Program-made: the position numbers and the translations under genes
Notes under the pieces: model-generated
What the model was told of the DNA's origin: nothing
Database searches by the model: none
The model's input: the letters and a program-made list of their open reading frames with translations, nothing else
Assembly: GCA_017999835.1 (NCBI GenBank)
Contig: JAGNLA010000010.1
Location: 1 to 61,109, forward strand
Length of the DNA: 61,109 bases
Reading direction: 5' to 3'
Source: Caldisericia bacterium
Lineage (GTDB): Bacteria; Caldisericota; Caldisericia; JAAYUI01
In this document: in pieces, positions 35,906 to 57,755 of the stretch
Numbering within the stretch: the first letter of the stretch is position 1
How the letters are laid out: the number at the start of each line of letters is the position of its first letter

Positions 35906-37102
35906 TTAGATACCATAAATAAAAGTATTGTAGTTGTATGTGATAATGTCATCATTATCAGAAACATTAATACTTTCAATGGATATGCAAGAGTCACTTG
36001 TATATAAAGTAGGCATAGATATTACTGGCATCTCTTTGATTATTGTTAGGGATTTGTCATATAATACAATTTTGTTCAAGGATTCGAGAGCAATGTAATC
36101 GCCAAAAAAACTCATACCTGCGAACCTGTCAATTTGAATTTTAGAAAGCACGTTGCCATTGATGATGTCTTTGCAACTTAAGAAATATTGTTTATTAGCA
36201 TCGCAACCAACAGGTTCTTGATAATATGCTAAATTTCCATTGCATAAGAACTCATCTCCGCATTCCTGGTTCCAGAGTTCCTTGCCATTATCCAGGTTGA
36301 TTGCCTTTAATCTTCGGGTAGAATCATCGCATGTGTATGAAAAATCAAGATTGTTTAACACTAAAACATTGTTGAAAATGTTACCATTCACATAGACAGG
36401 CTCTTTGAATTTATGTAATATTTTCTCCGATGAAAGGTCAAAGTAGTACATTGTATTATCAAGATAAAACAGTATTTTGCTAATACTAACATTCAAAATA
36501 TCATTTCCCAATATATAGGGGAAGAATTCTATTTTTGTTAACTTGCTCAAATCAAATTTTCTTCTTACATATCCATTTCTAATATCAATTTCAATTAGCT
36601 TTTTTGGATAGTACTCATCTCCACCATAACAAATAATGTAAGCAAAATCGTTGTCATTAATCGCATCATTTTCTGGCAACTCCTCCAATGTTTTGTTGTG
36701 CCACAACCTTTTTCCGTTATCCAAATTGTAACATGTTGTTCCTTTGTTTCTTATCATCAAATAGTTGTCATGAAGCAAATAGCAGTCTTTTTCGAATTGA
36801 ATCTTGCCTGCTTCAAGATCATTTTTCAGTTGGTTAGGTTCCTGTGACCAAACAGATTTTAGAGTTTTCAAGTCTATCAAATCGAGATTACTTTCGTAGA
36901 CCTTTGATTCTACATCTTCAGTACCTGGATTATTTACTTGGAAAATTCTTTTTTCAATGAGCATGCAACCATCGTAAACTAGCAAAGGATATCTATCCTT
37001 TATGACTTTTGGCTCTGATAAGACCATGTCACTGCCGATATTGCTGGTAATGATTTGGCAAATAGCAATAATGGCAAGGAATATAGGTTTAATCATTTTC
37101 AT
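35906..37102 (-). CDS. exported PQQ-like beta-propeller protein, AT-rich gene
   Basis: A 398-residue protein with an N-terminal signal peptide (about 1-23) and propeller-type repeats: CYNLDNGKRLWHNKT, INLDNGKELWNQECG and IIDLKT-like strands fit the G-K-x-x-W pattern of PQQ-like (quinoprotein-like) blades. No lipobox cysteine is evident after the signal sequence. The family often acts as a scaffold or envelope assembly factor and rarely binds PQQ. The gene is visibly more AT-rich than its neighbours, which could mean recent transfer. It starts 24 bases after the hydrogenase maturation protease gene and may share its transcript. Related proteins are encoded at 48477-52316 and 60779. Confidence 0.8.
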   Translation of the reverse strand: MKMIKPIFLAIIAICQIITSNIGSDMVLSEPKVIKDRYPLLVYDGCMLIEKRIFQVNNPGTEDVESKVYESNLDLIDLKTLKSVWSQEPNQLKNDLEAGKIQFEKDCYLLHDNYLMIRNKGTTCYNLDNGKRLWHNKTLEELPENDAINDNDFAYIICYGGDEYYPKKLIEIDIRNGYVRRKFDLSKLTKIEFFPYILGNDILNVSISKILFYLDNTMYYFDLSSEKILHKFKEPVYVNGNIFNNVLVLNNLDFSYTCDDSTRRLKAINLDNGKELWNQECGDEFLCNGNLAYYQEPVGCDANKQYFLSCKDIINGNVLSKIQIDRFAGMSFFGDYIALESLNKIVLYDKSLTIIKEMPVISMPTLYTSDSCISIESINVSDNDDIITYNYNTFIYGI

Positions 37103-37126: not shown

Positions 37127-37582
37127 TCAAACCAGCTCCCTTCCTGCTATCTCCTCAATGATTGAAGGCAGGTTTTCGGCAACTTCCTTGGTCATCTCTA
37201 TGCCAAAGGTGAGAACTTCCTTGACCTCAATTGCATAGATTGTGAATTTCTTTGGAATCCTGACGCCCATCTCCTCGCCCATCTTAAGCGCTGTTGCAAA
37301 ATTGATGTCGTGAACGTTGCTTATGTGCAGCGTTTCTGAAAAATTCTCAGGTGTGAGAATGGCAAGCGAACCGACCGGAAACTGGCCAGAATAGATTGTA
37401 TCGACAAGCACAGCCTCGTCATAACCGTCTGAGGCGTCGACGATTGTCATGCCACCAGAACTGAGTCTGACAAACGAAATGTCAGGGTTGGTATTTCGTT
37501 TCTCCAGTTCGTCAATTATCAAAAGACCGACGCGGTCGTCAGAGAGTATTGGGTTGCCAAGGCCGATTATCACTTTTTTCAT
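37127..37582 (-). CDS. hydrogenase maturation protease (HycI/HyaD family)
   Basis: A 151-residue endopeptidase that removes the C-terminal extension of a NiFe hydrogenase large subunit after nickel insertion. It shows GLGNPILSDDRVG at the N-terminus, with the nickel-sensing aspartate, and the second acidic ligand region LVDTIYSG, plus HISNVHDIN near the third metal-ligand histidine. The partner is the large subunit encoded just upstream, whose sequence ends with a 26-residue tail after its DPCxxCxxH motif. A terminator separates the two genes, so the protease may rely on read-through or its own promoter. Confidence 0.93.
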   Translation of the reverse strand: MKKVIIGLGNPILSDDRVGLLIIDELEKRNTNPDISFVRLSSGGMTIVDASDGYDEAVLVDTIYSGQFPVGSLAILTPENFSETLHISNVHDINFATALKMGEEMGVRIPKKFTIYAIEVKEVLTFGIEMTKEVAENLPSIIEEIAGRELV

Positions 37583-37600: not shown

Positions 37601-37635
37601 AAAAAAGAGCCTCCGATGTGCTTTCGGAGGCTCTT
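37601..37635 (-). terminator. Rho-independent terminator of the Hdr/Mvh operon
   Basis: A 12-bp stem (37605-37616 with 37624-37635, core AGAGCCTCCGA/TCGGAGGCTCT) with a seven-base loop, followed on the reverse strand by six T. It lies 17 bases after the hydrogenase large-subunit gene and before the maturation protease gene. Confidence 0.88.
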
Positions 37636-37651
37636 GATTTTACGCTCGAAT

Positions 37652-39157
37652 TTACCTGTTTGAAAGGGTCTGGACTACTGTGCCGTCTTTGGACTTCAAC
37701 TCGATTTCCATTGGCATTGAGCCTGGAAGCGAGTGTGTTGCGCAAGAGAAGCATGGGTCATAAGACCTGAAGACCATTTCGATGAGATTGAAGATGCCAT
37801 CGCTGACCTGACCGTTCTTGATAAAAGCTTTGGCTGTTTTTGTGGTCTCAAAGCAGATGGTTCCGTGATTGAAGGCGGTTGCAACGATTAAGTTGGCTTT
37901 TGTAACATAGCCGTTGTCGTCGCATTCGTAGTGGTGGATGAGTGTGCCGCGTGGAGCCTCAACTGAACCCATACCAAACTTCTTGTTTGTTGTTGGGATG
38001 GTTCTGACGTTTGGGTCGAGTATCTGCGGGTCGGTCATCAGCTCCTGCAGCCTTTCGGACGCGTAGAGGAGTTCGATGAGCCTTGCCCAGTGGTTGGCAA
38101 GTGAGAATTGAACTGGCCTTGTGCCAAAGGTTTTCATGAACCTTTCCCATTCGGCGTTTGCAAGCGGGGTTGCCATGCCGTCTGAGACGTTGATTCTTGA
38201 AAGTGGTGCAACTCTTACCATACCGGATTTTGGTCCATCAGTGATGCCATTCCAGCCGACTTTCTTGAGATACGGGAACTTCAGATAGCTCCATGGGAGA
38301 ACCTGTTCACCGATGTATTCAAGGTAGTCTTTGGCGTGGAATTTGGCAACTTCTTTGCCCTGTTGATCCATGACTCTCATGTTGCCGGAGTAAAAGTTGC
38401 AATGGTTTTTGTCGTCAACCATGCCCATGTGGTAGCTGTCGCTCTGGTAGAGGTCTTTGTTGGTTATGATGTCTAGATAGGCTTTGTTGCCAAGCACGAC
38501 CTGGTTGAAGATTTCGATGGTCTTTTTTGAGAATGAGATGAAATCCTTGGAGAGTTCCAGGATTTCCTTCTGCTGATCTTTTGTGATTGGCTTGCTGATT
38601 CCACCTGGAAGACCGAATACCGGATGGGTTGCCCTTCCGCCAATGATCTCCTGGATTTTCTGGGCAAGGCATCTCATGTGAAGGACTTCCTTGACCAAGT
38701 CTGCACCGACAGCGCCGATCAGGCCAATGACGTTTCTTTCTGCAACCGGTGCGCCAGGTCCAAGAACAAAGTCAGGAGCGGCAAGAGCGTAGAAGTGGAG
38801 GATGTGGGAGTGAATCATGTGGGCAGCGTAGGCTGCTTCCCTGAGCATGTGACCCGTTTTTGGTGGTTCTGCATCAAACATCATATCGAGAACTTTTGAT
38901 GATGCCAGATGGTGAGCCCATGGGCAGATGCCGCAGAGAGCCGTGACGATTCTTGGCATTTCCTCAACTGGTCTGCCTTTACAGAATTCTTCGAAACCTC
39001 TAAGTTCTACGACCTGGAAGTATGCTTCGTCAACATTTCCGGCGTCGTCGAGGAAAATTTCGATTTTTGCGTGACCGTCAAGCCTTGAAACAGGCGAGAT
39101 GGTCAGGTGGTTTGACTCTGCTTTGTGTGTCTTGTCAAAAATGATTGGTTCTGCCAT
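37652..39157 (-). CDS. mvhA: NiFe hydrogenase large subunit, MvhA type (group 3c-like)
   Basis: Catalytic subunit of 501 residues that binds the NiFe active site and cleaves or forms H2. The N-terminal L1 motif is ALCGICPWAHH (Cys ligands in CGIC) and the C-terminal L2 motif is DPCFSCATH. A tail of 26 residues follows the last histidine and should be cut off by the maturation protease encoded next door. No selenocysteine: all four ligands are cysteine. It is the last gene of the hdrC-to-mvhA operon, paired with the small subunit just upstream. Methanogen MvhAGD is the classic homologue. The subunit layout argues for cytoplasmic, F420-independent hydrogenase. Confidence 0.95.
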   Translation of the reverse strand: MAEPIIFDKTHKAESNHLTISPVSRLDGHAKIEIFLDDAGNVDEAYFQVVELRGFEEFCKGRPVEEMPRIVTALCGICPWAHHLASSKVLDMMFDAEPPKTGHMLREAAYAAHMIHSHILHFYALAAPDFVLGPGAPVAERNVIGLIGAVGADLVKEVLHMRCLAQKIQEIIGGRATHPVFGLPGGISKPITKDQQKEILELSKDFISFSKKTIEIFNQVVLGNKAYLDIITNKDLYQSDSYHMGMVDDKNHCNFYSGNMRVMDQQGKEVAKFHAKDYLEYIGEQVLPWSYLKFPYLKKVGWNGITDGPKSGMVRVAPLSRINVSDGMATPLANAEWERFMKTFGTRPVQFSLANHWARLIELLYASERLQELMTDPQILDPNVRTIPTTNKKFGMGSVEAPRGTLIHHYECDDNGYVTKANLIVATAFNHGTICFETTKTAKAFIKNGQVSDGIFNLIEMVFRSYDPCFSCATHSLPGSMPMEIELKSKDGTVVQTLSNR

Positions 39158-39159
39158 GT

Positions 39160-40176
39160 TTATTCCTCCACGTCTTCCACGACTTCGTTTACAAGCGCTG
39201 AACCGAAGCTGTAGCGGTAGAATGTTCCAAGTGGATCCGGAACCATCTCGGCGATTTTGTCGATCTCGTTTTCTTCGAGGTTCAACTCGTCGTCTCTGTA
39301 GTCAAGAACCGAGGCAAGACCGGAAAGAGTCGAGAGACCCTGATCCATGACGTTGCCTGTTGGTCCATAGCAACCTCTGCATGGCATGTTGCCGATGTTG
39401 GTGCACTGTGCACCACAGCCGGCGCGAGTTGCGATGCCTGGGCAGATGATGCCCTGATCGAGGAAACATTTTTCCTGATCAAGTGGAACCATGTGTGGTC
39501 TGTTGATCTTTTTGATGTTGTAACGGTCGGATTTTTTCCTCTTGCACTCATCGCAAAGCGATTTCTCTGAAGCGATGATTGTTCCCTTTGGCGGGAGTGG
39601 AGTGCCAGCAGTTACGAATCCGTGAACTGCCATTATGAGGGCTGTGATGGTTGGGACTGATGGCGGGCAGCCTGGCAGATAATAATCGACATCGATTATT
39701 TCGTCCATTCTCACGATTTTCTGGTTTGCCTTTGGGAGGGTGAGGATGTTGCCCTTTGGTGTCTTCCACTCGTAATTCGGACGTTCGCTTTTTTCGTTTG
39801 TTGTGGAGGCTGTTTCACCATAAACGGTGTCCCATATCTTTTTCATGCCACCCTTGACCGAGTTGGCAAGTGACGGGATGCCACCAAAAGCTGAGCATGC
39901 ACCGAAAGCCACAATCAGCTGTGATTTCTTGCGAAGAAGCTTGACCATGTGGACATTCTCTTCGTCTCTCATGCAGCCGTGGATGAGCGTTGCAGTGATA
40001 TGACCATCTGGCATTGCCTCAACGTCTTTGTACTTGGCGTCCATGTAGGTTGGGCCGAATGCAAGGTCAGCGATACCAAAAAGATCAAGCAGGAGCGAGT
40101 CTATGTCGAGCAGTGCCATGTCGCAGCCGTCGCATGTGGCTGCCCTGTTGACAGCGATTCTGATTTTGTCAGACAT
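39160..40176 (-). CDS. mvhG: NiFe hydrogenase small subunit, MvhG type
   Basis: A 338-residue small subunit that carries iron-sulfur clusters and passes electrons from the large subunit. The proximal cluster ligands are seen in ATCDGCD, GCMRDEE, FGACSAFGG and LPGCPPS. Toward the C-terminus further cysteines (SLCDECK, KCFLDQGIICPG, AGCGAQCTN, MPCRGCYGPT) provide more clusters, as in MvhG. No twin-arginine signal is present, so the enzyme is cytoplasmic. It lies two bases from mvhA and overlaps mvhD by eight bases. Confidence 0.95.
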   Translation of the reverse strand: MSDKIRIAVNRAATCDGCDMALLDIDSLLLDLFGIADLAFGPTYMDAKYKDVEAMPDGHITATLIHGCMRDEENVHMVKLLRKKSQLIVAFGACSAFGGIPSLANSVKGGMKKIWDTVYGETASTTNEKSERPNYEWKTPKGNILTLPKANQKIVRMDEIIDVDYYLPGCPPSVPTITALIMAVHGFVTAGTPLPPKGTIIASEKSLCDECKRKKSDRYNIKKINRPHMVPLDQEKCFLDQGIICPGIATRAGCGAQCTNIGNMPCRGCYGPTGNVMDQGLSTLSGLASVLDYRDDELNLEENEIDKIAEMVPDPLGTFYRYSFGSALVNEVVEDVEE

Positions 40177-40624
40177 GAGCTTCCTCCTTTACGTTTTTTG
40201 ATTCAATCAGTTTTTTTCTGATTGGGGAGATGCCGAGTTTGTCTATTTGCTTTGAAAACTCTCTCATGGTGTCGGCAAACTTTTGTCCTTCCGAAGCTGA
40301 AATCCATTCGAGTCTGAAGCGTTTTGGTGAGATGCCAAGCTGCTTGATCATTCTCTCAAGGAGGGCAATTCTTCTTCTTTCCCTGTAGTTGCCTGAGATA
40401 TAGTGGCAATCTCCTGGGTGGCAACCGGCAACGATGACGCCGTCTGCGCCTTTTGAGAAGGCACGGAGAACAATTTCCGGGTCGATTCTGGCAGAACACA
40501 TTGTTCGAATCATCCTGAAGTTTGTTGGCATCTGGAATCTTGACACACCGGCAAGGTCAGCGCCGGCGTATGTGCACCAGTTGCATGAAAGGACTACAAT
40601 GACTGGTTTTTTCTCTTCACTCAC
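40169..40624 (-). CDS. mvhD: MvhD, hydrogenase delta subunit (2Fe-2S)
   Basis: A 151-residue protein of the MvhD/delta family that connects the hydrogenase to HdrA. The N-terminal LSCNWCTYAGADLAG, then MCSARIDPE and GCHPGDCHY, give the cysteines of the [2Fe-2S] cluster. It overlaps hdrA by four bases and mvhG by eight. A second, longer MvhD-like protein is encoded beyond hdrA; this one is the conventional short form and most likely the direct hydrogenase linker. Confidence 0.95.
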   Translation of the reverse strand: MSEEKKPVIVVLSCNWCTYAGADLAGVSRFQMPTNFRMIRTMCSARIDPEIVLRAFSKGADGVIVAGCHPGDCHYISGNYRERRRIALLERMIKQLGISPKRFRLEWISASEGQKFADTMREFSKQIDKLGISPIRKKLIESKNVKEEAHV

Positions 40625-43600
40625 TGGGCCACCTCCTCCAATGCTGCGTCAATCATGTTGACCAGCTGTTTGGTTGTGAATCCGTACTGTTCCATGGCTC
40701 CTGACGGGCAGGCTCCGGCGCAGGCGCCGCAACCCTTGCAAAGCGCCTCGTCAACCTTGACTCTGCCGCGCTCGGTTTCCTTGTCCAGGATTTCGAGCGA
40801 CAGCGCCTGGTATGGGCACATCGGGATGCAGATTCTGCAACCATCGCAGATGTCAGGGTTGACTGTTGCGATTGCCGCTTCAGCCATGAGCCTGTCCTTG
40901 CTGATGATGGTGAGGGCTCTTGCCGATGCTGCCGATGCCTGGGCGATTGACTCGTCAAGCATCCTTGGGTGGTATGCCATACCTGCAAGGAAGATGCCTT
41001 CGGTTGCAAAGTCGACCGGTCTGAGCTTGACGTGGGCTTCAAGGAAGAAGCCTTCGTCGTTGGTTGGAACCTTGAGGAATGTTGAGAGAACTTTGTTGTC
41101 CGGGTTAGCTTCAACGCCAGCCGAAAGAACAACCAGGTCTGCTGGGATTTCTAGCCAGCCGTGAAGAACCGGGTCGTGTGTCCTGACTATGAGTTTGCCG
41201 TCTTTTTCGATGACTTCCGGCTGATTCTCTGGATCCCATCTTGAGAAGATGACGCCTTTTTCACGGGCTTTGTTGTAGTAGTGTTCCCTGAAACCATAGG
41301 TTCTGACGTCTCTGTAGAGAACGTAGACCTCGGTTTTTGGCAGGTCTTCCTTGATCAGATTGGCGTTTGCCATTGCTGTTGAGCAGCAGATCCTTGAGCA
41401 GTATGGGTGCTCGTCGTTTCTGGAACCTACGCACTGAATCATGACCACTGACTTGATGTCTTTTGAAAGCTCTTTTTTGATGAGCTTTTCTTCAAGTTCA
41501 ATCTGGGTTATGACCTTCGGGTTTTTGCCATAGAGGAATTCTTTTGGCTTGTGCTGGTTTGCACCTGTGGCAACGATGATAGAGCCAACAGAGAGTTCCT
41601 TTGTTTCGTTTGTTTTTGAGCTCTTGACTACTGGCACAAAATTGCCAACCGAGCCTGAAAGATCTGAGAGAACCGTGTTTTTGAGAATTGTGATGTTTTT
41701 GTTTCTCTCGACTTCAAAGATCAGACTCTTGAGATATGCCTGCATGTCGCCGACTTCGTTGGTGTAATAGGAATGATTGAGGTTTCCACCGAGTTTGTCT
41801 TCTCTTTCGATGACTGTGACCGGAAAACCGTTCTTTGCGATGTCGAGAGCTGCGTTGAGGCCGGCTGCTCCACCGCCGATGACCAATGCTGACTGGGTGA
41901 CAGGCAGCGATGCCCTCTTGAGTGGCTGAAGCATTCTTGTCTTGGCGATTGCTATCCTGACGAGGTCTTTTGCTTTCTGGGTTGCTTCGGCAGGTGACTG
42001 CTGATGAATCCAGGAGCAATGCTCACGGATGTTTGCCATTTCGACAAGATACGGGTTGAGCCCTGTTTCCCTGAGCGTTTCCTGGAACAATGGCTCGTGG
42101 GTTCTTGGAGTGCAGGAAGCGATGACCACGCGGTTGAGGTTGTTTTCCTTGATCATCTTTGAGATCAGACTCTGGGTGTCCTGGGAGCAGGTGTAGAGGT
42201 TGTGTTCTGCAATGATCACGTTTGGAAGGTTTTTTGCGTAATTCATTACGTCAACAACGTCAACAGTGTTTGCGATGTTGATGCCGCAATGACAGACAAA
42301 TACGCCAATCCTGGGCTCTTCACCGGTGACGTCTTTTTCTTTTGGATACTCTTTTTCAACAAGAGCGGTTCTTCTGCCTTCGGCACAATCTGCGCCTGCC
42401 TTTGCGGCTGCGCCGATTGCCTGGGCTACCGTTTCCGGGATGTCCTTTGGACCTTCAAACACGCCTGCCACATAGATGCCTTGACGGCTTGTCTGAAGCG
42501 GGTTGGTGTAGTCGGTCTTGGCAAATCCATCCTGGGTAAGGTCAATGCCGAGGTTGTCAGCAAGGGTCTTTACCGATTCTGAAATTTGGAGTCCAACGCT
42601 GAGAACGCACAGGTCAAAGACTTCGGTCTTTTCCGATCCGTCTTCGCTCTCGTATCTGATGATGATGTCGTGCGTTGTTGGGTCTTCCATGACTTCGGCG
42701 ATGCGGTTTCTGACGTAGCGGATGCCCCACTCGCCTTTTGCTCTGTTGTAATACTGTTCAAAGCCTTTGCCGACAGCTCTCATGTCCATGATAAATATTG
42801 TGGATTCAATATCTGGAACATGCTCGCGTGTCATGATGGCTTCTTTGGTTGCGTACATGCAGCAAACGCCTGAGCAGTAAGGTTTGTTGATCTTTGGATC
42901 CCTTGAACCAACGCACTGGATCCAGGCGATTCTCTTTGGAACCTTGCCGTCTGACGGTCTCAGAACGTGACCCTGATACGGACCTGATGCGTTGAGAATT
43001 CTTTCGTACTGGATTGAGCTGATGACGTTGGGGAATCTGCCGTAGCCGTATTCCTGTTTGAGCCTTGGGTCGAATTCGTCAAAGCCTGGGCAAAGAATAA
43101 CTGAGCCGACATCGATTGTCTTTTCAGTTTCAGTGTCGTCGTACTTGACGGCTTTTGCCAAGCAGACGTTTTCGCACATCTGGCAACCGATGCAGGCTTC
43201 CCTGTCGATTGTCGCCACAAGCGGGATTGCCTGTGGGAATTCGATGTAGATGGCTTTACGGTTTACAAGCGATTCGTTGAATGCCGATTCTCTTTCAATT
43301 GGGCAGTAGGTCATGCAGGTTCCGCAACCTGTGCACAGGGTTCTGTCAACGAACCTTGGGTGCACTTTCACGGTTGCCTTGAATTCACCTGGCCTGCCTG
43401 TGATTTTTGAGATTTCGGCGTTCGGGATGATGTCGATGTTCTGGTTTCTGCCGCAAGCAACAAGCTTTGGGGACAGGATGCACATCGAGCAGTCGTTGGT
43501 TGGGAAGGTTTTGTCCAGCTGAGCCATGACTCCGCCGATTGCCGGTGATTTTTCAACCATGTAGACATGGAATCCGGCTTCGACAAGGTCAAGTGATGTC

Positions 43601-43671
43601 TGGATACCTCCGATGCCTCCGCCTACAACCAGAACCGAGCCTGAACTTTTTGCGCCTTTTTTTGTGTCCAT
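40621..43671 (-). CDS. hdrA: HdrA-like flavoprotein, tandem-module form
   Basis: Flavoprotein of 1016 residues, about 350 longer than methanogen HdrA. It has two FAD modules. The first begins with GGGIGGIQ (residues 17-24) and has a cluster set CSMC (61-64) plus two [4Fe-4S] motifs at 113-123 and 160-170. Next is an HdrA N-domain-like stretch (about 460-590, VFVCHCGINIA). The second FAD module (GGGAAGLNAA, about 605) ends with two ferredoxin motifs, at about 942-952 and 978-988. In HdrABC the flavin bifurcates electrons between ferredoxin and a disulfide acceptor. Long HdrA forms are known in sulfate reducers. It lies between two MvhD genes and supplies the centre of the complex. Confidence 0.93.
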   Translation of the reverse strand: MDTKKGAKSSGSVLVVGGGIGGIQTSLDLVEAGFHVYMVEKSPAIGGVMAQLDKTFPTNDCSMCILSPKLVACGRNQNIDIIPNAEISKITGRPGEFKATVKVHPRFVDRTLCTGCGTCMTYCPIERESAFNESLVNRKAIYIEFPQAIPLVATIDREACIGCQMCENVCLAKAVKYDDTETEKTIDVGSVILCPGFDEFDPRLKQEYGYGRFPNVISSIQYERILNASGPYQGHVLRPSDGKVPKRIAWIQCVGSRDPKINKPYCSGVCCMYATKEAIMTREHVPDIESTIFIMDMRAVGKGFEQYYNRAKGEWGIRYVRNRIAEVMEDPTTHDIIIRYESEDGSEKTEVFDLCVLSVGLQISESVKTLADNLGIDLTQDGFAKTDYTNPLQTSRQGIYVAGVFEGPKDIPETVAQAIGAAAKAGADCAEGRRTALVEKEYPKEKDVTGEEPRIGVFVCHCGINIANTVDVVDVMNYAKNLPNVIIAEHNLYTCSQDTQSLISKMIKENNLNRVVIASCTPRTHEPLFQETLRETGLNPYLVEMANIREHCSWIHQQSPAEATQKAKDLVRIAIAKTRMLQPLKRASLPVTQSALVIGGGAAGLNAALDIAKNGFPVTVIEREDKLGGNLNHSYYTNEVGDMQAYLKSLIFEVERNKNITILKNTVLSDLSGSVGNFVPVVKSSKTNETKELSVGSIIVATGANQHKPKEFLYGKNPKVITQIELEEKLIKKELSKDIKSVVMIQCVGSRNDEHPYCSRICCSTAMANANLIKEDLPKTEVYVLYRDVRTYGFREHYYNKAREKGVIFSRWDPENQPEVIEKDGKLIVRTHDPVLHGWLEIPADLVVLSAGVEANPDNKVLSTFLKVPTNDEGFFLEAHVKLRPVDFATEGIFLAGMAYHPRMLDESIAQASAASARALTIISKDRLMAEAAIATVNPDICDGCRICIPMCPYQALSLEILDKETERGRVKVDEALCKGCGACAGACPSGAMEQYGFTTKQLVNMIDAALEEVAQ

Positions 43672-43686
43672 CTGTTTCTACTCCTT

Positions 43687-44463
43687 TCAGGCCTGAATGT
43701 ACTGGAAGTAACGTCCTGACATGCCTGCCTCGTGAACCATGCCTTTATGTTCAAGAAGCTGCACCAGGCCAAAGACCTGCGGCTCAGGCATACAAGCCTG
43801 GGCGGCGATCTGCGGGATTGTCATCGGGACTTTTTCGATTGTTGAGAGAACGTGGTAAAGCTGATATTTCTCTTCAATCGACTTGAGGATCATCTCGTCA
43901 AACTGCTCTGGCGAGATGGTTTCGTTGTAAGTGTTCCCAGAAATCGTCAGTTTTGGCTCTTTGCCAACCAACCAACCAATCTCGGGGTCGCTTGTGACTT
44001 TTCTTGCGCAGCAGATGCGATGTCTGGTTTCCTCTGGGGTGAGGCCTTCAGTTGCGGCTGTGCCAAGTGGTCCGAGCGTGTTAACTTTGCTTCTGAACTT
44101 GTCCAGTGGGTCTGCGATAAGCTGAAGGAACCCAAGCGAGAGCTCAACTCTTGCTGGATCAAATCCTGCAAACTGAAGGAGGTTCTTTGCAAAATGAACT
44201 CTGCGCTGGGCGATGAGGTTGCCAGTTCTGTAGTTGCACTCGAGAGGTGAGCAGCCGGCGATAAACACGCCATCGGCTCCCATTTCAAGCGCTTCAAGAA
44301 CGTTGTCGGCAAGAATTCTGCCTGAGCAGATGACTCTGACAATCTTGCTGATGCCTTTGTAAGGTGTCCTGACGGTTCCGACAAGGTCGCCCGAGGCAGA
44401 GGAGCACCAGTTGCAGACGAAAGCCACTACTTTTGGTACATATCTTTTCTTTGTATCTGCCAT
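43687..44463 (-). CDS. MvhD-like protein with C-terminal winged-helix-like domain
   Basis: A 258-residue protein. Residues 1-125 are an MvhD delta-type domain with VCNWCSSASGDLVG, ICSGRI and AGCSPLECNY, so the [2Fe-2S] ligand set is kept. A linker of about 70 residues follows, with CCARK inside it. The C-terminal 60 residues (LSTIEKVPMTIPQIAAQACMPEPQVFGLVQLLEHKGMVHE in part) read like a winged helix, usually a DNA- or protein-binding fold. It sits between the ferredoxin gene and hdrA. It may be a second electron entry to HdrA, or a redox-coupled regulator. Domain fusion assigned by eye; function is inferred. Confidence 0.8.
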   Translation of the reverse strand: MADTKKRYVPKVVAFVCNWCSSASGDLVGTVRTPYKGISKIVRVICSGRILADNVLEALEMGADGVFIAGCSPLECNYRTGNLIAQRRVHFAKNLLQFAGFDPARVELSLGFLQLIADPLDKFRSKVNTLGPLGTAATEGLTPEETRHRICCARKVTSDPEIGWLVGKEPKLTISGNTYNETISPEQFDEMILKSIEEKYQLYHVLSTIEKVPMTIPQIAAQACMPEPQVFGLVQLLEHKGMVHEAGMSGRYFQYIQA

Positions 44464-44472
44464 GTGTCCTCC

Positions 44473-45138
44473 TTAAAAGCTCTCGATGACTTCCCTGACA
44501 TGGTCTGTCAGTTTGTCAGTCGTGTGGAAGTTCATAAATATCGCGCCGTATGGGCATGAGGTTGCACAAAGCGAGCATCCCCTGCATAGGTCACGGTTCG
44601 TTCTGGACTTGAGTCCGCGTTCGGTCTTGACCATTGTGATCGCTTCAAATGGGCAGACTTCAACGCAAAGACCGCAACCAACACAAAGATTGTCGTCTCT
44701 CATCTCGACTTCTTCGAAAATGAGGGCGTCTTTCGGGCAAGCGTCAACACAGGCCGGGACATCGAGGTCAAGGCATCTGTCGCACTTGAGAACGTGCGTA
44801 TAGTCTTCGTTTGGAAGAACTCCACCGTACGGGCAGTTCATTATGCACATCCAGCAGGCAATGCACTTGTCGTAATCGATGTTGACCATGCCGGTTTCGT
44901 TGTCATAGTGCATGGCGCCTGTCATGCAGGCTGTAACGCATGGGGCATCGTCACAGTGGCGGCAGCGAAGCGGATACGGCCTTGTTCCGGCAAGTTCAAC
45001 GTGAACTCTCTGTTTAGTGAGTTCCTTCTCAATGCCATCACCGTTTCCGTTTGTCGGTGCTGTATGTTTTTTAAGGCAGGCTCTCTCGCAGAGTCTGCAG
45101 CCGACGCATTTTTCGAAATCAACTAGGATAGTTTTCAT
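44473..45138 (-). CDS. polyferredoxin with six [4Fe-4S] motifs
   Basis: A 221-residue iron-sulfur protein with 24 motif cysteines in six CxxCx(2-7)CxxxC groups: near residues 11-21, then CRHC...C...C, CIACWMCIMNC, CDRC...C...C, CVGCGLCVEVC and CRGCSLCATSC. The layout resembles the electron-transfer subunits of DMSO-reductase-type enzymes and CooF/HycB. Six clusters would make a molecular wire. It lies between the FAD oxidoreductase and MvhD-like genes, and probably moves electrons between them and HdrA. No signal peptide, so cytoplasmic. Confidence 0.92.
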   Translation of the reverse strand: MKTILVDFEKCVGCRLCERACLKKHTAPTNGNGDGIEKELTKQRVHVELAGTRPYPLRCRHCDDAPCVTACMTGAMHYDNETGMVNIDYDKCIACWMCIMNCPYGGVLPNEDYTHVLKCDRCLDLDVPACVDACPKDALIFEEVEMRDDNLCVGCGLCVEVCPFEAITMVKTERGLKSRTNRDLCRGCSLCATSCPYGAIFMNFHTTDKLTDHVREVIESF

Positions 45139-45151
45139 CTCTCCATACCTC

Positions 45152-46387
45152 CTAGAAGATCAGAAGTGCCAATTTGTCTTCGAGCACTTCTTCCTTATGT
45201 CCTTTTATCGAGATCTGCTTTTTGACCAAACCGTTGATCGTTCCGATTGTTGCAATCTTGCCAACAAAGAGAGCGCCAGCGATTCTGTCGTTGTTTATGA
45301 CAACCTTGCGATAAAGGCCTTCTTTGATGTTTTGTGAGATCATGACTTCGTGGGTGCCGCCTGCTGGCCTGACATCGCCGATGCTGATGCAGGAGAGACC
45401 GTAGAACTGGAATGAGTTCATCCAGAACCAACCACGATATTCCTTTGGAATGCCGACCATGTTGAGTCCGGCAACCTGTCCCTGCTCGGATGCTCTTGGC
45501 CAGACGAGGTTTGTTGTGGACTTACCAAACGATTCTTCGTACGTCTCGGTGCAGTCGCCTGCAGCCCAGACGTTTGGAATGTTGGTTCTCATGTGGTTGT
45601 CCACAACGATGCCTGAACCGCACTTGACTTCTGTCCCCTTGATGTATTTAAGGTCTGGGGCAACACCCTTGGCAAACACGACGATGTCTGTTTCGTGTTC
45701 ATCGCCTGATTCAAGAACCACGCCCTCAACCTTGTCCTTGCCTGTGATGGCAGAAATAGAGGTGTTGAGGATGATTCTGATGCCTTTTCTGTCGAGCCTT
45801 CTTTTGACGATGGACGCTGCTGTTTCGTCAAGGAGCTGGCTCATGATCTGACCTGATGCGATGACAGCTGTAACATCTACGCCAGCGTCGACAAGACCCT
45901 GACAGGCCTTGAGACCAACGAGTCCACCACCAACAACCATTGCTCTCTTGATCTGACCTTTTTTGATTTTGTCCATGATCTCGAGTGTTGGGCCCAGATG
46001 TGTGAAAGTGTAGACGCCTGGAAGGTTTGCGCCTGGTGTGTCTGGAATTTGCGTTTTTCCGCCAGTTGCAATCAGGAGCTTCTCGTATGAGATTTCTGTT
46101 CCGTCTTCAAGGGCGAGTTTGTTTTCAATTGGCATGTACTTTGTGACCGGTTTGCCAAGCATGAGTTTTATGTTTCTCTTGTCGTACCAGTCTTTGTCAT
46201 GATAGTACATCTTGTCTTGAGTGGTCTCTCCGCCGATGAGGTAGGAGATCAGTGGTCTGGAATAGCTTAGGTATGGCTCCTCGGAGATCATCAGGATGGT
46301 GTTTTCCTTGTCATGAAGGCGGATGGTGTCGGCGGCGCGAAGTCCGGCTATACCGTTGCCGATGATTACATATTTATATTTTTCCAT
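45152..46387 (-). CDS. FAD-dependent NAD(P)H oxidoreductase (rubredoxin reductase-like)
   Basis: Flavoprotein of 411 residues from the pyridine-nucleotide-disulfide oxidoreductase family. It has an FAD Rossmann motif GNGIAGLRAA at the N-terminus, a second dinucleotide motif VGGGLVGLKA near residue 150 for NAD(P)H, and the C-terminal FAD motif VWAAGDCTE. It lacks the redox-active CxxC of thioredoxin or dihydrolipoamide reductases; homologues include NADH:rubredoxin reductase and the N-terminal part of NirB. In this operon it is well placed to link the Hdr/hydrogenase complex to the NAD(P)H pool, a role inferred from position. Confidence 0.9.
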   Translation of the reverse strand: MEKYKYVIIGNGIAGLRAADTIRLHDKENTILMISEEPYLSYSRPLISYLIGGETTQDKMYYHDKDWYDKRNIKLMLGKPVTKYMPIENKLALEDGTEISYEKLLIATGGKTQIPDTPGANLPGVYTFTHLGPTLEIMDKIKKGQIKRAMVVGGGLVGLKACQGLVDAGVDVTAVIASGQIMSQLLDETAASIVKRRLDRKGIRIILNTSISAITGKDKVEGVVLESGDEHETDIVVFAKGVAPDLKYIKGTEVKCGSGIVVDNHMRTNIPNVWAAGDCTETYEESFGKSTTNLVWPRASEQGQVAGLNMVGIPKEYRGWFWMNSFQFYGLSCISIGDVRPAGGTHEVMISQNIKEGLYRKVVINNDRIAGALFVGKIATIGTINGLVKKQISIKGHKEEVLEDKLALLIF

Positions 46388-46396
46388 CGTGCCTCC

Positions 46397-47305
46397 TTAT
46401 TGAGCTGGCGCGGCTTCTGGAGCCGGGGCAAATTTTTCAAGCAGCGTTTTTGGCTTTATCTTGTGCTGGTTGAATCCGAGTTCGGATTCTGGAATGCCAA
46501 GCGCAAGACCGATAATCTGCGGGAGGAAAAGGACTGGAATGTCGATTGACTTGCCGCTGTCGCGCTCTAGTTTCTTCTGGTGTGCCTCGTACTGGATGTT
46601 GCAAAACGGGCAGTGAAGGACTAAACCGTCGATGTCGCCAGCGTATTGTTTGATCCTGTCAAGTTTACCTGCAGCAATTGATACAGCCGTGTTTTCCTTG
46701 ATGCCAAGGATGCCACCGCCACAGCATTCGTTTGGATTGACGATTGTTTTGACAGTTGCGCCTGTTGCCTTGACCAGATCGTTGAGCGTTGATGGTGATT
46801 CTGGATCGTCGAACTTGGAGAAAACTTCTGATGGCTTAAGATAGTGGCAACCTGAATGGGTTACAAATGTTGCACCCTTGAGTGGTTTTACCACTTTTTC
46901 CTTCAAACCTTTTGGTCCGATGGCTTCAAATAGCATCTTTGAGAAATGAACAACCTTGGCTTCGCCCTTGTAACCTTTTTTGCCAGCTTTGGCAAGTTCG
47001 GCATTAACTTTTTCTCGTTCAGCCTTGTCGTGCCTTAGATGCTCGGAAACCTCTGAAAGGGTGGAGTTGCAAGCTGAGCAAAGGGTTACGATGTTTAAAC
47101 CCATCTCCTCAGCCTGAGCAAGAGCGCCGGCTGACATAACCATCGAGGCGTGCCTGTTGACATTGACCATTGGCATGCCACAGCAGGATGCTCCTGGCAT
47201 ATCGACGAGTTCGATACCGAGTTTTTCAGCGACTTTTCTTGCTGAAAGCTCGTAATGGAGAGCGCGTGCTGGTATCGTGCAACCTAGAAAGAGAGCATAT
47301 TTCAT
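46397..47305 (-). CDS. hdrB: HdrB-like subunit (two CCG domains)
   Basis: Heterodisulfide-reductase subunit B homologue of 302 residues. It has both CCG motifs complete: Cys9, Cys41-Cys42, Cys76 and Cys79 in the first, and SGCHYL, NECCGGG and HCPFC in the second. These bind the pair of noncubane [4Fe-4S] clusters that cleave the CoM-S-S-CoB heterodisulfide in methanogens. Since bacteria lack those coenzymes, the true disulfide acceptor here is unknown. The C-terminal tail is rich in Ala and Pro. The ATG shares one base with the hdrC stop. Confidence 0.94.
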   Translation of the reverse strand: MKYALFLGCTIPARALHYELSARKVAEKLGIELVDMPGASCCGMPMVNVNRHASMVMSAGALAQAEEMGLNIVTLCSACNSTLSEVSEHLRHDKAEREKVNAELAKAGKKGYKGEAKVVHFSKMLFEAIGPKGLKEKVVKPLKGATFVTHSGCHYLKPSEVFSKFDDPESPSTLNDLVKATGATVKTIVNPNECCGGGILGIKENTAVSIAAGKLDRIKQYAGDIDGLVLHCPFCNIQYEAHQKKLERDSGKSIDIPVLFLPQIIGLALGIPESELGFNQHKIKPKTLLEKFAPAPEAAPAQ

Positions 47306-47817
47306 TATTTTGCCTCCTTCTTGAGATCGTTTGCCACCAAAACAGCTTCAATGAACTCCTTCTTGTTTTCCAAAGCCGGGAGACCCATCTTTGCTCTCTT
47401 TTTGTTGTCGAAATCGGAAACTTCATACATTCTTCCGAAGTTGGCAAGTACATCAATCTGAGGAGCGTAGGATGGATGCATATATCCTTCCCTTGCAGCT
47501 AGATTCTTGAGTGCAAACAGCAGGTCAGTGATGCCGACGTCCTGGGGACAACGTTCCTGGCAAGTATAGCAGTAGGTGCAAAGCCAAATCGGCTCGCTTC
47601 CCAGAACTTCATCCCTCATGCCCAAAAGCACCATTCTGATGATTTTTCTTGGGTTGTAGCTCTCATCAGTTGCTCTTACAGGACAAGAGGCTGTGCACGT
47701 TCCGCACTGGAAACAGCTTTTGATGCGTTCACCGCCGGCAAGTCCTGCAACCTCGTACTTAAAATTCGGGTTGAGACGGCTAACCGGGATGGTGGAGGCG
47801 TCTTTCTGTTCGCTCAC
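47305..47817 (-). CDS. hdrC: HdrC-like iron-sulfur subunit
   Basis: A 170-residue protein with two [4Fe-4S] motifs: Cys35-x2-Cys38-x2-Cys41-x3-Cys45 and Cys80-x2-Cys83-x2-Cys86-x3-Cys90, which wires HdrA to HdrB. I take the GTG at 47817 (MSEQKDAS) as start, because GGGGTGA lies before it and a promoter sits between it and an ATG 120 bases further upstream; the longer version would start upstream of that promoter. It heads the operon hdrC-hdrB-FAD protein-polyferredoxin-MvhD/wHTH-hdrA-mvhD-mvhG-mvhA. The intergenic region to the next, divergent gene has a dyad that may be an operator. Confidence 0.93.
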   Translation of the reverse strand: MSEQKDASTIPVSRLNPNFKYEVAGLAGGERIKSCFQCGTCTASCPVRATDESYNPRKIIRMVLLGMRDEVLGSEPIWLCTYCYTCQERCPQDVGITDLLFALKNLAAREGYMHPSYAPQIDVLANFGRMYEVSDFDNKKRAKMGLPALENKKEFIEAVLVANDLKKEAK

Positions 47818-48476: not shown

Positions 48477-49688
48477 TTGAAAAAAATATTCACAACATTG
48501 GTCATTGCAACAATTATATTGTCAGGATGCAGTGACCAACCAATAAAAGAGGAGTCGAGGATTATGGATGAACCACAAATATCTACTATAAACCTTGATA
48601 CAAAAAACATGTTTTATCCTTCTCCAAGAATCGAACCTTTCAAAGGATTGATTCCAATTCTTGATGTGTCAACAATGGCAGGCAACTTTCCTGATGGTGT
48701 TTTATACTGTTTCGACCTTATCAATGGAAAGATTGCATGGAAAAAGGAAATTGAAAAAGGTTATCACGGAAAGCTTGAGTATGCAGGATTGGATGGCAGT
48801 GTGTTTGTAAAGCTTGATGGAAAACTGACCTGTCTTGATCTTTTTACCGGGAAAACCACATGGCAGTCCAAAGAAAGCATTGATTGGATTGAGAAATCTG
48901 TTGGCAATCGCGTTTTTTGCGTCAGCACCGAAGAGAACAGGCGCAATGACGACACATACAGGAATCTTTTATGTTTTAATGCTATCAATGGAAAAAACAT
49001 CTGGTCGGTTGAGATTACTATAAGCTTCCTGAGTGGTTTTTACAGCAATGATGAAGTGGCATACTTTGACTGGCTGGAAGACGGACGCAATCTTTTAACA
49101 AGGGATGCAAAAACAGGCGTTCAAAAACAAAAGATTCAGGGAGCGGACATGATTGGTCATAATTATGACAGTCAAACCAATGTCTTGTACAGGCTTTGGA
49201 ATGACCTTTTCATGCACACATCCGAAAAAGAAGTTTCAATATACAGATTTGGCAGGATTGACAAAAAGATACCGGCTGCTGCGGCGGTTTCCCAAGAAAA
49301 GCTATTGCTGCAGGTGAAAAACAATGAAACACAAATAATTGATCTTGGTACAGAAAAGGTTATCTCGACAATCCCGGAAAACATTATGCAGTCAAGAATC
49401 ATTTCTGGCAAAGCCTGTTTTGTTTCAGATGGCAAATTCAATGTTTATGATCAAGAAACCGGCAAACTGCTCTGGTTTTTCGGGCAGGTTGCAAACTTTA
49501 ATGACGACGTGATCCTTGTGCCAGCAGACAACAAATCTTTGAGACTCCATTCAATGCGCGATGGTTCTTTGATCTCAGAACTCAAACTTGAAGATGAAAT
49601 CTACGAAACAGCCCCAATAGACGGTTTTGGATTCGTCGTTTCCACAAAAAACGGTAAAGCAGTTATCATTAAAACTTACCAACAATAA
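48477..49688 (+). CDS. PQQ-like beta-propeller lipoprotein (1 of 3)
   Basis: Exported lipoprotein of 403 residues. The signal peptide ends in the lipobox LSGC, with the lipidated cysteine at about residue 18. The rest has PQQ-like propeller blades with the family spacing: DLINGKIAWKKE, DLFTGKTTWQSK, NAINGKNIWSVE and DQETGKLLWFFG. Homologues include BamB, but there is no evidence of an outer-membrane complex here. The start is a TTG after a GGGGGTGGG ribosome binding site. It is the first of three tandem paralogues and follows the DUF4870-like gene. Confidence 0.88.
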   Translation: MKKIFTTLVIATIILSGCSDQPIKEESRIMDEPQISTINLDTKNMFYPSPRIEPFKGLIPILDVSTMAGNFPDGVLYCFDLINGKIAWKKEIEKGYHGKLEYAGLDGSVFVKLDGKLTCLDLFTGKTTWQSKESIDWIEKSVGNRVFCVSTEENRRNDDTYRNLLCFNAINGKNIWSVEITISFLSGFYSNDEVAYFDWLEDGRNLLTRDAKTGVQKQKIQGADMIGHNYDSQTNVLYRLWNDLFMHTSEKEVSIYRFGRIDKKIPAAAAVSQEKLLLQVKNNETQIIDLGTEKVISTIPENIMQSRIISGKACFVSDGKFNVYDQETGKLLWFFGQVANFNDDVILVPADNKSLRLHSMRDGSLISELKLEDEIYETAPIDGFGFVVSTKNGKAVIIKTYQQ

Positions 49689-49781
49689 TTGAAAGAAAAA
49701 AGTGTTTTGTAACCATGATGTTAAATAGTCGATGAGAATGAGTTATGTTCGATGAGGGATTTCTCGTCCTGGAGGAAAAAA

Positions 49782-51017
49782 ATGGTAAAGAAACTGGTTT
49801 TGGTTGTTATGATGTGTGCACTTGAGGCATCCTGTTCGTCAGGAAACGTTGGCAATGGAGAATATATTCAGTCAGAACCGTCCTCGATGACCGACCAGAT
49901 GTCGGTGACAATGTACCCTGTGTGTCTGGCAAAACCTTTCAATGGTCTTGTCGCAATAGCAAATGTTACGCCTGTAAATGACAAAACCACAACCGACCTT
50001 TTCTGTTTTGACATCAAAACCTCCAAAATCCAGTGGGAAACCGTCATCGAGAACGGCATTCACGGAAAGCTCTCCTACTCAGGGTTCGAGGATGCAGTTT
50101 ATGCCAGGCAGGACAGTAAATTGAAAAAGGTCGACCTTGCTTCCGGTAAAACTGTCTGGGAATCGGCTGAAAACATTATCAGCGTCGAAAAAGCTTTTGG
50201 CGACTTTGTTTATTGCACAGGAGACAACATGAACCAGGAAACCGAGTCCCTGAACAAAACCCTCATGGCTTTTGACGCAAAAATTGGGAACCTTGTGTGG
50301 ACAAGTGAAATATCGCTATATTTTGTGAATCCACAGTTTGGTGACAAGGAGATTGTGTTTGTTGATGACCTTGGCTCAGGCAGCCAGCTTTTTGTGCTGG
50401 ACAGGCAAACAGGGAAAACGAAGAAAACCATAGAAAGGGCAACATTTGCCGGTTACAACGACACTGAAAGCTCAAACATCCCTTACATTCTTGAAGACAA
50501 AATAATAATGCACACCCCTGAAAAAGAGGTTGAATTGATGAGTGCCGGCCTACCATCGCAGGCAAAGAAAATGATGGCTTTTATCCACAAAAGTTTTGCC
50601 CTGATTGGTGAAGATTCTGACAAATCCAAAATCATTGACGTTTTAACAGGAAAAATTCTGTGCGAACCGAATTTTTTTGTAATGAATACACTTGGCACAC
50701 ACGAGAACATGGTTATTTTCAAAAGCGCAGGTAAAGACGCAAACAAACCAGCAGTGGCACTGACAGCTATCGATATGGCTGATGGTTCAATAAAATGGCA
50801 GACTGAGGCTGACGTTTCAGCTGGCAATGTGCTTGTGCTTGACGATGCGATAGCGGTTGCCACAAGCACCGAGAATGTCCAGTTGCTGTCATTGGAAACC
50901 GGGAAGCTGACCAAGGAATTTGACACTGGTAAGACCGTCTACATCCTTTCAAAACTGGACGAAAAGACATTTCTCGCGGTTTTCAACGGCAACAGTGTAT
51001 CATTTTGGAGCAAGTAG
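49782..51017 (+). CDS. PQQ-like beta-propeller lipoprotein (2 of 3)
   Basis: Second of three paralogous lipoproteins, 411 residues. The ATG at 49782 follows GGAGG; an in-frame ATG 30 bases upstream would put extra charged residues before the signal peptide. The lipobox is EASC. Propeller strands show DIKTSKIQWETV, DLASGKTVWESA, DAKIGNLVWTSE, DMADGSIKWQTE and a typical SLETGKLTKEF. It shares order and spacing of blades with its neighbours, pointing to tandem duplication and divergence. Role may be scaffold or substrate recognition in the envelope; no catalytic residues seen. Confidence 0.88.
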   Translation: MVKKLVLVVMMCALEASCSSGNVGNGEYIQSEPSSMTDQMSVTMYPVCLAKPFNGLVAIANVTPVNDKTTTDLFCFDIKTSKIQWETVIENGIHGKLSYSGFEDAVYARQDSKLKKVDLASGKTVWESAENIISVEKAFGDFVYCTGDNMNQETESLNKTLMAFDAKIGNLVWTSEISLYFVNPQFGDKEIVFVDDLGSGSQLFVLDRQTGKTKKTIERATFAGYNDTESSNIPYILEDKIIMHTPEKEVELMSAGLPSQAKKMMAFIHKSFALIGEDSDKSKIIDVLTGKILCEPNFFVMNTLGTHENMVIFKSAGKDANKPAVALTAIDMADGSIKWQTEADVSAGNVLVLDDAIAVATSTENVQLLSLETGKLTKEFDTGKTVYILSKLDEKTFLAVFNGNSVSFWSK

Positions 51018-51086
51018 AAAAAATCAATTATTTTTCCACGGTGTCTAATCCTGTAGATGCTGTTTTTGGCATCTGGAGGAGGAACT

Positions 51087-52316
51087 TTGAAAAAGCATTT
51101 TATTGCAGTCGCAATGGTCGTTGCCGTTGTGTGTGGGTGCTCAGGCAAGGGTGACAATGTGTCCTTTGCATATCGCCAGGTTGCTTCGACAAACATTTCT
51201 ATTCCAAAAAATGCTGAATTTCTAAACACTTTCATCCATTCAAGCGGAAAGTATGCCGTGTTTATCAACCCTTATTCAATGCCTAACGACAAACCAACGC
51301 TTTATTGCGTGAATTTGGATAGCGGCAAACTGTTGTGGGCAAAAGACATAGTGGTAGAGAGCAAAGTTAATTTTGCTGTGTTTGATGATGCAGCTTACGC
51401 CGTGATAAATTCGAGATTGACCAGGATCGACCTTTCGACAGGAAAGCAAAACAATGTGACCGATGATAAGGTTGAGCATCTGGATGATTACGATGAAAAC
51501 TCGATATATTGCATGCAGAATGCTTTCCAGCAGAAAGAAAACCAGGACTTCAAGTTTGATTTCCATTGCCTCAGCTTTGACCCCAAACAGGGAAAATTGA
51601 ATTGGAACACAAAAATTGACATGAGCTATGGCTCGATAACTTCAGGGAAATCGATGGTTGCAATTTTCACCACAAACACAATTGACAAAAAGTTTGCCAT
51701 CTTGGACAAAACAACAGGCAAGGTTGTCAGATATGAACCAATATCTTCCAGAAAACAGTTTTACAACATCGATGACAAAGCCAATGTGATTTTCTTTCAC
51801 GACAACGCTGTGAGAATGGGCACTGACTCAGGAGTGATAAAACTCATTGACTATGACAAGCTGCCAGACTGGGCAAATGTCGGTGGAATGTATTACAAGG
51901 GCGAATTGTACATTTGGCGCGACAACGGTCAGATACAAAAACTTGACACAAACTCTGGCAAGCCAAAATTTGTTATCGAGTCGGACAAGGCTGGCCGAGT
52001 AAGGTTCGACCATTATTTCAACAATTTCATATCGACTACAGACAAAGCATTCAAGCTCATTTCAGCTGACAGCGGAAAGATAGTTGCGCAGATGCCTTTG
52101 GATGAACCAATCAAAACGTTTGATAGAACAAAAGATGAATTCATTATTCAGGTAACTGACAAGAAGATTGTGGTTGCAAGCAAAAAGGACATGGTTGTAA
52201 AGCAAACCATCGACACCGGAAAAAAGATAATAAACCTGGTTGGTTCAGAAACGGATTTGTTTGGAGTGGTTTTTGAAGACGGGCAGTACGCTGTCTACTC
52301 TGGCTCAAAACACTGA
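51087..52316 (+). CDS. PQQ-like beta-propeller lipoprotein (3 of 3)
   Basis: Third tandem paralogue, 409 residues. TTG start at 51087 following AGGAGGA. The signal peptide ends in VCGC as lipobox. Blade motifs are weaker than in the other two: NLDSGKLLWAKD, DPKQGKLNWNTK, DTNSGKPKFVIE and SADSGKIVAQMP. The 3' end overlaps the convergent HD-domain gene by 22 bp, so there is no room for a terminator. Function unknown, probably envelope-localised like the others. Confidence 0.87.
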   Translation: MKKHFIAVAMVVAVVCGCSGKGDNVSFAYRQVASTNISIPKNAEFLNTFIHSSGKYAVFINPYSMPNDKPTLYCVNLDSGKLLWAKDIVVESKVNFAVFDDAAYAVINSRLTRIDLSTGKQNNVTDDKVEHLDDYDENSIYCMQNAFQQKENQDFKFDFHCLSFDPKQGKLNWNTKIDMSYGSITSGKSMVAIFTTNTIDKKFAILDKTTGKVVRYEPISSRKQFYNIDDKANVIFFHDNAVRMGTDSGVIKLIDYDKLPDWANVGGMYYKGELYIWRDNGQIQKLDTNSGKPKFVIESDKAGRVRFDHYFNNFISTTDKAFKLISADSGKIVAQMPLDEPIKTFDRTKDEFIIQVTDKKIVVASKKDMVVKQTIDTGKKIINLVGSETDLFGVVFEDGQYAVYSGSKH

Positions 52317-57226: not shown

Positions 57227-57755
57227 TATATTCGAAGCCGGCGTCCAAAGCTTTGCAGTTGACGTCGAAGTATTTTGCTTTGGCTTCGCCGAGTTTGTGC
57301 TTGATTGCTGCTTTTGCTGAATCAACTGTGATTGCGCCAGTATTCTTTATGAATACTCCAAGCATGATGATGTTTGCAGCTTTGGACATTCCAACTTTTT
57401 CTGCGATTTCGTTTGCCGGGATGTAGTGAACTGTAATGTCAGTCCTATTCGATTTAAGATTGATAAGCGAAGAGTTAATGAACAGGTGTCCACCCTTTGC
57501 AACCTTTGGTTCGAATGATGTGAATGATGGGGCATTCATAACCACTACGTTTGTTGGGTTTGGAACAACTGGAGACGCAATCTCTTCGTCAGAAGCGATG
57601 ACTGTACAGTTTGCTGTTCCGCCTCTCATGGCCGGGCCATAAGAGGGAAGATAAACGGCATTCCTGCCTTCAAGAACGGCTGAGTCGGCAAAAAGCATAC
57701 CGAGCATCATGACGCCCTGTCCACCAAAACCTGAAACTAGTAAATCGTGTTGCAT
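57219..57755 (-). CDS. 2-oxoacid:ferredoxin oxidoreductase, gamma subunit
   Basis: A 178-residue gamma domain of a 2-oxoacid:ferredoxin oxidoreductase (KorC/VorC-like) that contributes to CoA binding in the assembly. The N-terminus shows SGFGGQGVMMLGMLFADSA, and later PSYGPAMRGGTANCTV, both typical of the family. It shares one base with the end-to-start junction of the beta-subunit gene and lies last of three subunit genes. Together they form the enzyme that oxidises 2-oxoacids to acyl-CoA and CO2. Confidence 0.94.
   Translation of the reverse strand: MQHDLLVSGFGGQGVMMLGMLFADSAVLEGRNAVYLPSYGPAMRGGTANCTVIASDEEIASPVVPNPTNVVVMNAPSFTSFEPKVAKGGHLFINSSLINLKSNRTDITVHYIPANEIAEKVGMSKAANIIMLGVFIKNTGAITVDSAKAAIKHKLGEAKAKYFDVNCKALDAGFEYNE

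Follow-up and report, generated by a model that had tools for sequence, protein, structure and literature searches.

The window considered here, a 61,109-nucleotide stretch of the genome of a Caldisericia bacterium (assembly GCA_017999835.1, contig JAGNLA010000010.1, positions 1 to 61,109), carries on its minus strand a nine-gene operon (37,652 to 47,817) that encodes the subunits of HdrABC and of the MvhADG hydrogenase module, together with an FAD/NAD(P)-type oxidoreductase (FNOR), a polyferredoxin and a long MvhD-like protein, designated here MvhDL. For many bacterial Hdr complexes, donors and substrates are unknown. Our main finding is that the polyferredoxin ends in what is, by its sequence, an HdrA-type C-terminal ferredoxin domain and not a generic ferredoxin, and we conclude from sequence relationships that this tail and MvhDL were acquired jointly, as partners matched for docking. 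The explanation that we favor, with a probability of about one half, is that the operon would encode one soluble bifurcating or confurcating complex, in which HdrABC is served by a hydrogenase arm and by a second arm that contains FNOR, the second docking site being supplied by the polyferredoxin.

The polyferredoxin gene (44,473 to 45,138; stop codons are included in all gene coordinates, and all genes of the operon lie on the minus strand) specifies 24 cysteines in six four-cysteine motifs. An earlier note on this DNA, made from the sequence alone, had counted the six clusters correctly but had overlooked the modular origin of the protein. Residues 1 to 145 (44,704 to 45,138) resemble four-cluster adaptor ferredoxins of the AorA/CooF type, while residues 146 to 221 (44,473 to 44,703 with the stop) correspond to the C-terminal ferredoxin of HdrA, including its tail helix. 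Against a hidden Markov model (HMM) built from 74 HdrA C-termini of other loci, some of them duplicated, this second part scored 70.7 bits with a match running through the tail helix; the HdrA of the operon itself scored 86 bits, and the other ferredoxin domains tested reached at most 43 bits and lacked the tail helix. Its best single-domain matches in the PDB were again HdrA C-termini (55 to 57 bits). MvhB leads the ranking for the whole protein only by summing many domains, the best of which reaches 42 bits, and classification as an MvhB-type polyferredoxin was rejected. Among the adaptor ferredoxins examined, a tail of this type was found only in the Hdr-linked polyferredoxin. The number of clusters is not in itself new: six-cluster CooF-like ferredoxins adjoin CO dehydrogenase (CODH) in three other loci (L047, L049 and L050), with C-termini that are not HdrA-like (28 to 40 bits). 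In these three loci, the ferredoxin and CODH genes share one cluster with HdrCBA-MvhD, and the L049 cluster also contains genes resembling the Wood-Ljungdahl genes for formate-tetrahydrofolate ligase and FolD.

The gene following the polyferredoxin encodes MvhDL (43,687 to 44,463), composed of a FlpD [2Fe-2S] domain (PF02662, E 9e-31), with its five cysteines kept, and a helical tail. In HdrA neighborhoods outside the Caldisericota family to which the genome belongs, a FlpD gene directly follows 64 of 66 HdrA-type C-terminal ferredoxins, and both such ferredoxins of the operon obey the same order, HdrA being followed by MvhD and the polyferredoxin by MvhDL. The polyferredoxin tail is also most like those HdrA C-termini whose next gene is of the MvhDL type, with a mean of 57.8 bits (n = 7) versus 41.3 bits (n = 61) for the others. 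Taking these relationships together, we regard tail and MvhDL as a matched pair. Full-length homologues of MvhDL occur in other phyla, where they adjoin HdrA, and the conservation of the tail among them rules out that MvhDL is just a generic long MvhD. Its predicted structural model is of moderate quality; the only good structural matches were MvhD chains, and although the tail resembled a winged helix, Foldseek matched the FlpD part only. In five of the homologues, from other lineages (L098, L100, L101, L078 and L099), the codon for the second cysteine of the CNWC motif is an in-frame TGA, which probably encodes selenocysteine at the [2Fe-2S] site.

The other half of the added module is of a known kind. 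FNOR (45,152 to 46,387; PF07992, E 1.5e-56) is of the AorC/CODH-FNOR type and keeps the GxGxxG and FAD motifs. Its best PDB match (166 bits) is 8C0Z chain E, the AorC subunit of an NAD-reducing tungsten aldehyde oxidoreductase in which the last cluster of AorA, FS4, lies 9.5 Å from the FAD of AorC (PMC10413684). The first 145 residues of the polyferredoxin are 36 to 48% identical to ferredoxins adjacent to FNOR in other genomes, and match several four-cluster ferredoxins in the PDB, including 8C0Z chain C (AorA). Of 20 neighborhoods read around the highest-ranking FNOR homologues in other genomes, 19 have a four-cluster ferredoxin gene next to FNOR. The partner of the pair, as judged by Pfam, is CODH in three loci (L109, L110 and L120), glutamate synthase with glutamine synthetase in L113, and parts of glutamate synthase in L118 and L124; the remaining catalytic partners were recognized by eye only. 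Since the pair sits beside CODH/ACS and glutamate synthase and within AorABC, we consider FNOR plus four-cluster ferredoxin a general adaptor. FNOR was absent from all 50 neighborhoods read around homologues of HdrA or MvhD outside the family, a sample that is small relative to the known species and in which some neighborhoods are cut by contig ends. With FNOR as query, a scan of a genome collection reached nothing but close kin and a single relative at 34%, which has no hdr genes. The family-level kin, in which FNOR is 75 to 77% identical, are Caldisericales/Caldisericia metagenome-assembled genomes; in a quick tree that also covered CODH- and glutamate synthase-linked FNORs, the family forms one clade.

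The core to which this module is joined appears complete. HdrC (47,305 to 47,817; CoB_CoM_SS_C, E 4e-38) has two [4Fe-4S] motifs with 8 cysteines, and a GTG start in a region that agrees with the start of HdrC in relatives. HdrB (46,397 to 47,305; PF02754, E 7e-23; CoB_CoM_SS_B, E 2e-69) contains two CCG domains and aligns along its length to methanogen HdrB (9SFI chain C). Both of its noncubane motifs are complete, with ten cysteines (C9, C41, C42, C76 and C79; C153, C194, C195, C232 and C235) at spacings of 31/33 and 40/36, near the consensus CX31-39CCX35-36CXXC, which bears out the earlier claim that all noncubane-cluster cysteines are retained. MvhD, the [2Fe-2S] connector (40,169 to 40,624; PF02662, E 5e-54), and the hydrogenase small subunit MvhG (39,160 to 40,176; VhuG model, E 8.5e-56) are followed by the [NiFe]-hydrogenase large subunit MvhA (37,652 to 39,157; VhuA model, E 1.5e-120), which has all four NiFe-site ligands (C75/C78 and C469/C472).

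HdrA (40,621 to 43,671; HdrA2 model, 1021 bits) is a fusion of 1016 amino acids with two FAD modules, its double-module build having already been recognized in the note, and its alignment to the HdrA of 8RVU falls in three blocks. Module 1 (residues 8 to 431) comprises FAD, the inserted ferredoxin and Cys64, which a cysteine map places, in this module only, as the equivalent of Cys197. Module 2 (residues 450 to 1016) comprises the N-domain, a second FAD fold and the C-terminal ferredoxin; N-domain and C-terminal ferredoxin are absent from module 1, so the fused protein has a single C-terminal ferredoxin in total. The fusion itself is ordinary, because many HdrAs among those found in 386 genomes share its length, with identities up to 56%. 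Fused HdrAs with complementary domain loss are known from ANME archaea and from Moorella (PMC9012536), and the Moorella protein holds two FAD (PMC5861303).

All nine genes were confirmed where the earlier note had placed them, and its proposal that they form one transcription unit with the Mvh-Hdr core fits their layout. Intergenic gaps range from -8 to +15 bp, and an intrinsic-terminator-like hairpin (37,605 to 37,635, minus strand; a 12-pair stem and a T run, by consensus match only) lies directly after mvhA. A tenth conserved gene on the same strand (37,127 to 37,582) encodes a hydrogenase maturation protease of the HyaD/HycI type (TIGR00072, E 1.2e-27), at the same position in relatives. 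The search for this gene order that the note had recommended recovered the ten genes, complete and in the same order, in four further genomes, which belong to a second genus within this Caldisericota family, at protein identities of 51 to 84%. Between two of these related genomes, nonsynonymous divergence (dN) is 0.003 to 0.028 versus a synonymous divergence (dS) of 0.20 to 0.58 for every gene, which excludes chance or decay. These features support the view that the nine hdr/mvh/FNOR/polyferredoxin genes make up one compact, conserved transcription unit.

How the parts might work together is suggested by published Mvh-Hdr structures, in which electrons pass from MvhAG through MvhD and the HdrA C-terminal ferredoxin to FAD (PMC9012536). 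The first arm would accordingly run from H2 through MvhA, MvhG, MvhD and the C-terminal ferredoxin of HdrA to FAD. The second would lead from NAD(P)H to the FAD of FNOR, then through four clusters of the polyferredoxin to its HdrA-type C-terminal ferredoxin, to MvhDL and finally to HdrA. As the HdrA pseudo-dimer has one C-terminal ferredoxin, the simplest role for a separate one with its own MvhD would be to restore the second arm: arm 2 would bind to module 1, the polyferredoxin would give in trans the domain that this module lacks, and both halves of the pseudo-dimer would get a donor arm. The inserted domain of HdrA would be the site of ferredoxin exchange, and HdrB that of the disulfide reaction. 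A precedent for two different arms is the methanogen HdrABC dimer that binds hydrogenase and formate dehydrogenase simultaneously, as cited in PMC9012536. We infer that the nine products assemble into one complex; the docking domain and the second MvhD make this much more likely than mere co-transcription. As to the direction of electron flow, confurcation towards H2 or thiols would be as likely as bifurcation, because VorB-type genes in the window suggest plentiful reduced ferredoxin. They encode the three subunits of a 2-oxoacid:ferredoxin oxidoreductase (57,219 to 59,571, minus strand), which is a likely supplier of the reduced ferredoxin that the complex would use. It is quite possible, though at somewhat less than even odds, that a single fused HdrA accepts the chemically different H2 and NAD(P)H arms at once, the second through a docking ferredoxin in trans, and so acts as a hub with four partners, namely H2, NAD(P)H, ferredoxin and a disulfide.

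Several points weigh against the two-arm complex. The predicted single-chain model of the polyferredoxin has a pLDDT of 30 and is unusable. The HdrA-type ferredoxins that rank fifth to seventh in likeness to its tail are not paired with MvhDL, and the p-value for the likeness (Mann-Whitney, 4.7e-5) overstates independence, as common descent may underlie the HdrAs found with MvhDL; the ranking is unaffected by this. The acidic residue with which the second strand ends in NAD-linked relatives is missing from FNOR, which also has a glutamine at the position of AorC Arg179. MvhDL, moreover, could contact MvhG instead of HdrA. This last possibility leads to the main rival arrangement, which we consider rather unlikely and in which the FNOR arm sits on the hydrogenase and electrons from H2 pass through MvhG, MvhDL, the polyferredoxin and FNOR to NAD(P)+, so that the enzyme has two parallel outlets, bifurcation through MvhD and HdrA beside simple NAD(P)+ reduction. 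The operon does contain two MvhD paralogues for one hydrogenase, and MvhD lies between MvhG and the HdrA C-terminal ferredoxin in Mvh-Hdr (PMC9012536); as residues 146 to 221 mimic that ferredoxin, the closest analogy would have MvhG on the other side of MvhDL. MvhG need not be the partner, however, since MvhDL-type genes stand beside HdrA in L098, L100 and L101, where MvhA and MvhG were undetected. Moreover, H2 and NAD(P)H would already be connected in this cell by a group-3b-like hydrogenase.

Improbable, in our estimation, is that FNOR and polyferredoxin form a separate NAD(P)H:ferredoxin-type enzyme, merely co-transcribed, for another catalytic subunit or for free ferredoxin. In other genomes this pair works with CODH/ACS and glutamate synthase, but the operon contains no other catalytic partner, the HdrA-type docking tail is confined to the Hdr-linked version, and the gene order is kept in two genera. 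Slightly less probable again is that FNOR uses a carrier other than NAD(P)H, the complex then being a three-way H2/ferredoxin/disulfide enzyme with an extra electron outlet. The two substitutions noted above suggest this, for the second-strand pattern is VIAS/VVIAS in place of the VELAD of NAD-linked relatives, and the changes are conserved within the family. Against it stand the intact nucleotide- and FAD-binding motifs and the VxxS pattern shared with CODH/ACS-linked FNORs, a type annotated as NAD(P)-dependent, there without biochemical proof (PMC6344411). NAD(P)H is put forward here as the putative substrate, with NADP(H) or something else a possible carrier. The claim in the earlier note of an added NAD(P)H-type flavoprotein fares accordingly: a pair of FAD protein and polyferredoxin that looks built to feed or drain the core is present, while the use of NAD(P)H by the FAD protein is made less certain by the altered residues.

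Compared with MvhADG-HdrABC of methanogens and its bacterial forms, the operon encodes all six core subunits together, with their cofactor motifs and the same connection from MvhD to the HdrA C-terminal ferredoxin. It differs by its bacterial host relative to the methanogens, by an HdrA of 1016 amino acids with fused complementary modules instead of a single module of about 650 amino acids with N-domain, insert and C-terminal ferredoxin, and by the addition of FNOR, polyferredoxin and MvhDL. The extra carriers are therefore three and not two, as had been stated, since the methanogen complex has no counterpart of the long MvhD-like protein either. In FlxABCD-HdrABC of Desulfovibrio and other anaerobes, a pyridine-nucleotide module feeds HdrABC through the MvhD-type FlxD. 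The general scheme is alike in outline, but the operon has no FlxA/B/C-type subunits (the sulfhydrogenase-gamma-like family of FlxA is missing among its proteins), its nucleotide module belongs to the AorC/FNOR type, which is unrelated, and a hydrogenase is also present. The MetFV-HdrABC-MvhD complex of Moorella thermoacetica, for which reactivity with NADH is reported (PMC5861303; PMC9012536), likewise has a fused HdrA with two FAD modules; here, MetF and MetV are missing, and a hydrogenase and a dedicated FNOR would form the arms instead. By sequence similarity and adjacency, FNOR and residues 1 to 145 belong to the CODH-CooF-FNOR/AorABC adaptors, but their partner is Hdr-Mvh, the operon has no catalytic subunit of CODH or of a tungsten-dependent aldehyde oxidoreductase, and the polyferredoxin carries in addition an HdrA-type ferredoxin with two more clusters. 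Finally, Elp-Hdr and Fdh-Hdr of methanogens also have alternative FAD-containing donor arms that connect to HdrA by way of an MvhD homologue (PMC12350162). There, such an arm takes the place of Mvh and is fed by F420H2 or formate, whereas the operon described here encodes its two arms side by side.

Every part is thus known, and what appears to be new is how they are combined, and that an adaptor ferredoxin ends in an HdrA-type tail; neither feature was found in the genomes sampled or in the open-access literature searched, in which a four-way H2/NAD(P)H/ferredoxin/disulfide hub on one fused HdrA is likewise not described. An HdrA-type C-terminal ferredoxin with a matching MvhD would amount to a plug-in rule for new electron modules on HdrA, for which genomes can be scanned. 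If the two-arm reading is true, flavin-based electron bifurcation would gain a member with four substrates, and a poorly studied phylum would have a possible route for coupling oxoacid-derived ferredoxin, NAD(P)H and H2.

The cell has further routes that connect NAD(P)H, ferredoxin and H2. The same genome, a 1.89 Mb draft of 93% completeness, has an NfnAB-type pair on contig 4 (L139), a further ferredoxin/NAD(P)H coupling enzyme, and on contig 26 (L132) the second [NiFe] hydrogenase, group 3b-like and of the HydBGDA sulfhydrogenase kind, with its own protease. Neither a [FeFe] hydrogenase nor a Complex1_51K protein was found in this genome at that completeness; the latter is present in relatives. 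With these enzymes, the operon is ruled out as the sole link between NAD(H) and H2 in the cell. DsrC is absent in all five genomes, and was discarded as the disulfide partner. Elsewhere in the window, an EB_dh (ethylbenzene-dehydrogenase-type) domain occurs in a lipoprotein-like protein (59,582 to 60,616, minus strand) beside the oxidoreductase genes. Three tandem paralogous genes for BamB/PQQ-like beta-propeller, lipoprotein-like proteins lie at 48,477 to 52,316 on the plus strand, and a fourth propeller-like gene, with no Pfam match, at 35,906 to 37,102. An HD-domain protein with a sub-threshold Cas3_HD match is encoded at 52,295 to 53,707 on the minus strand.

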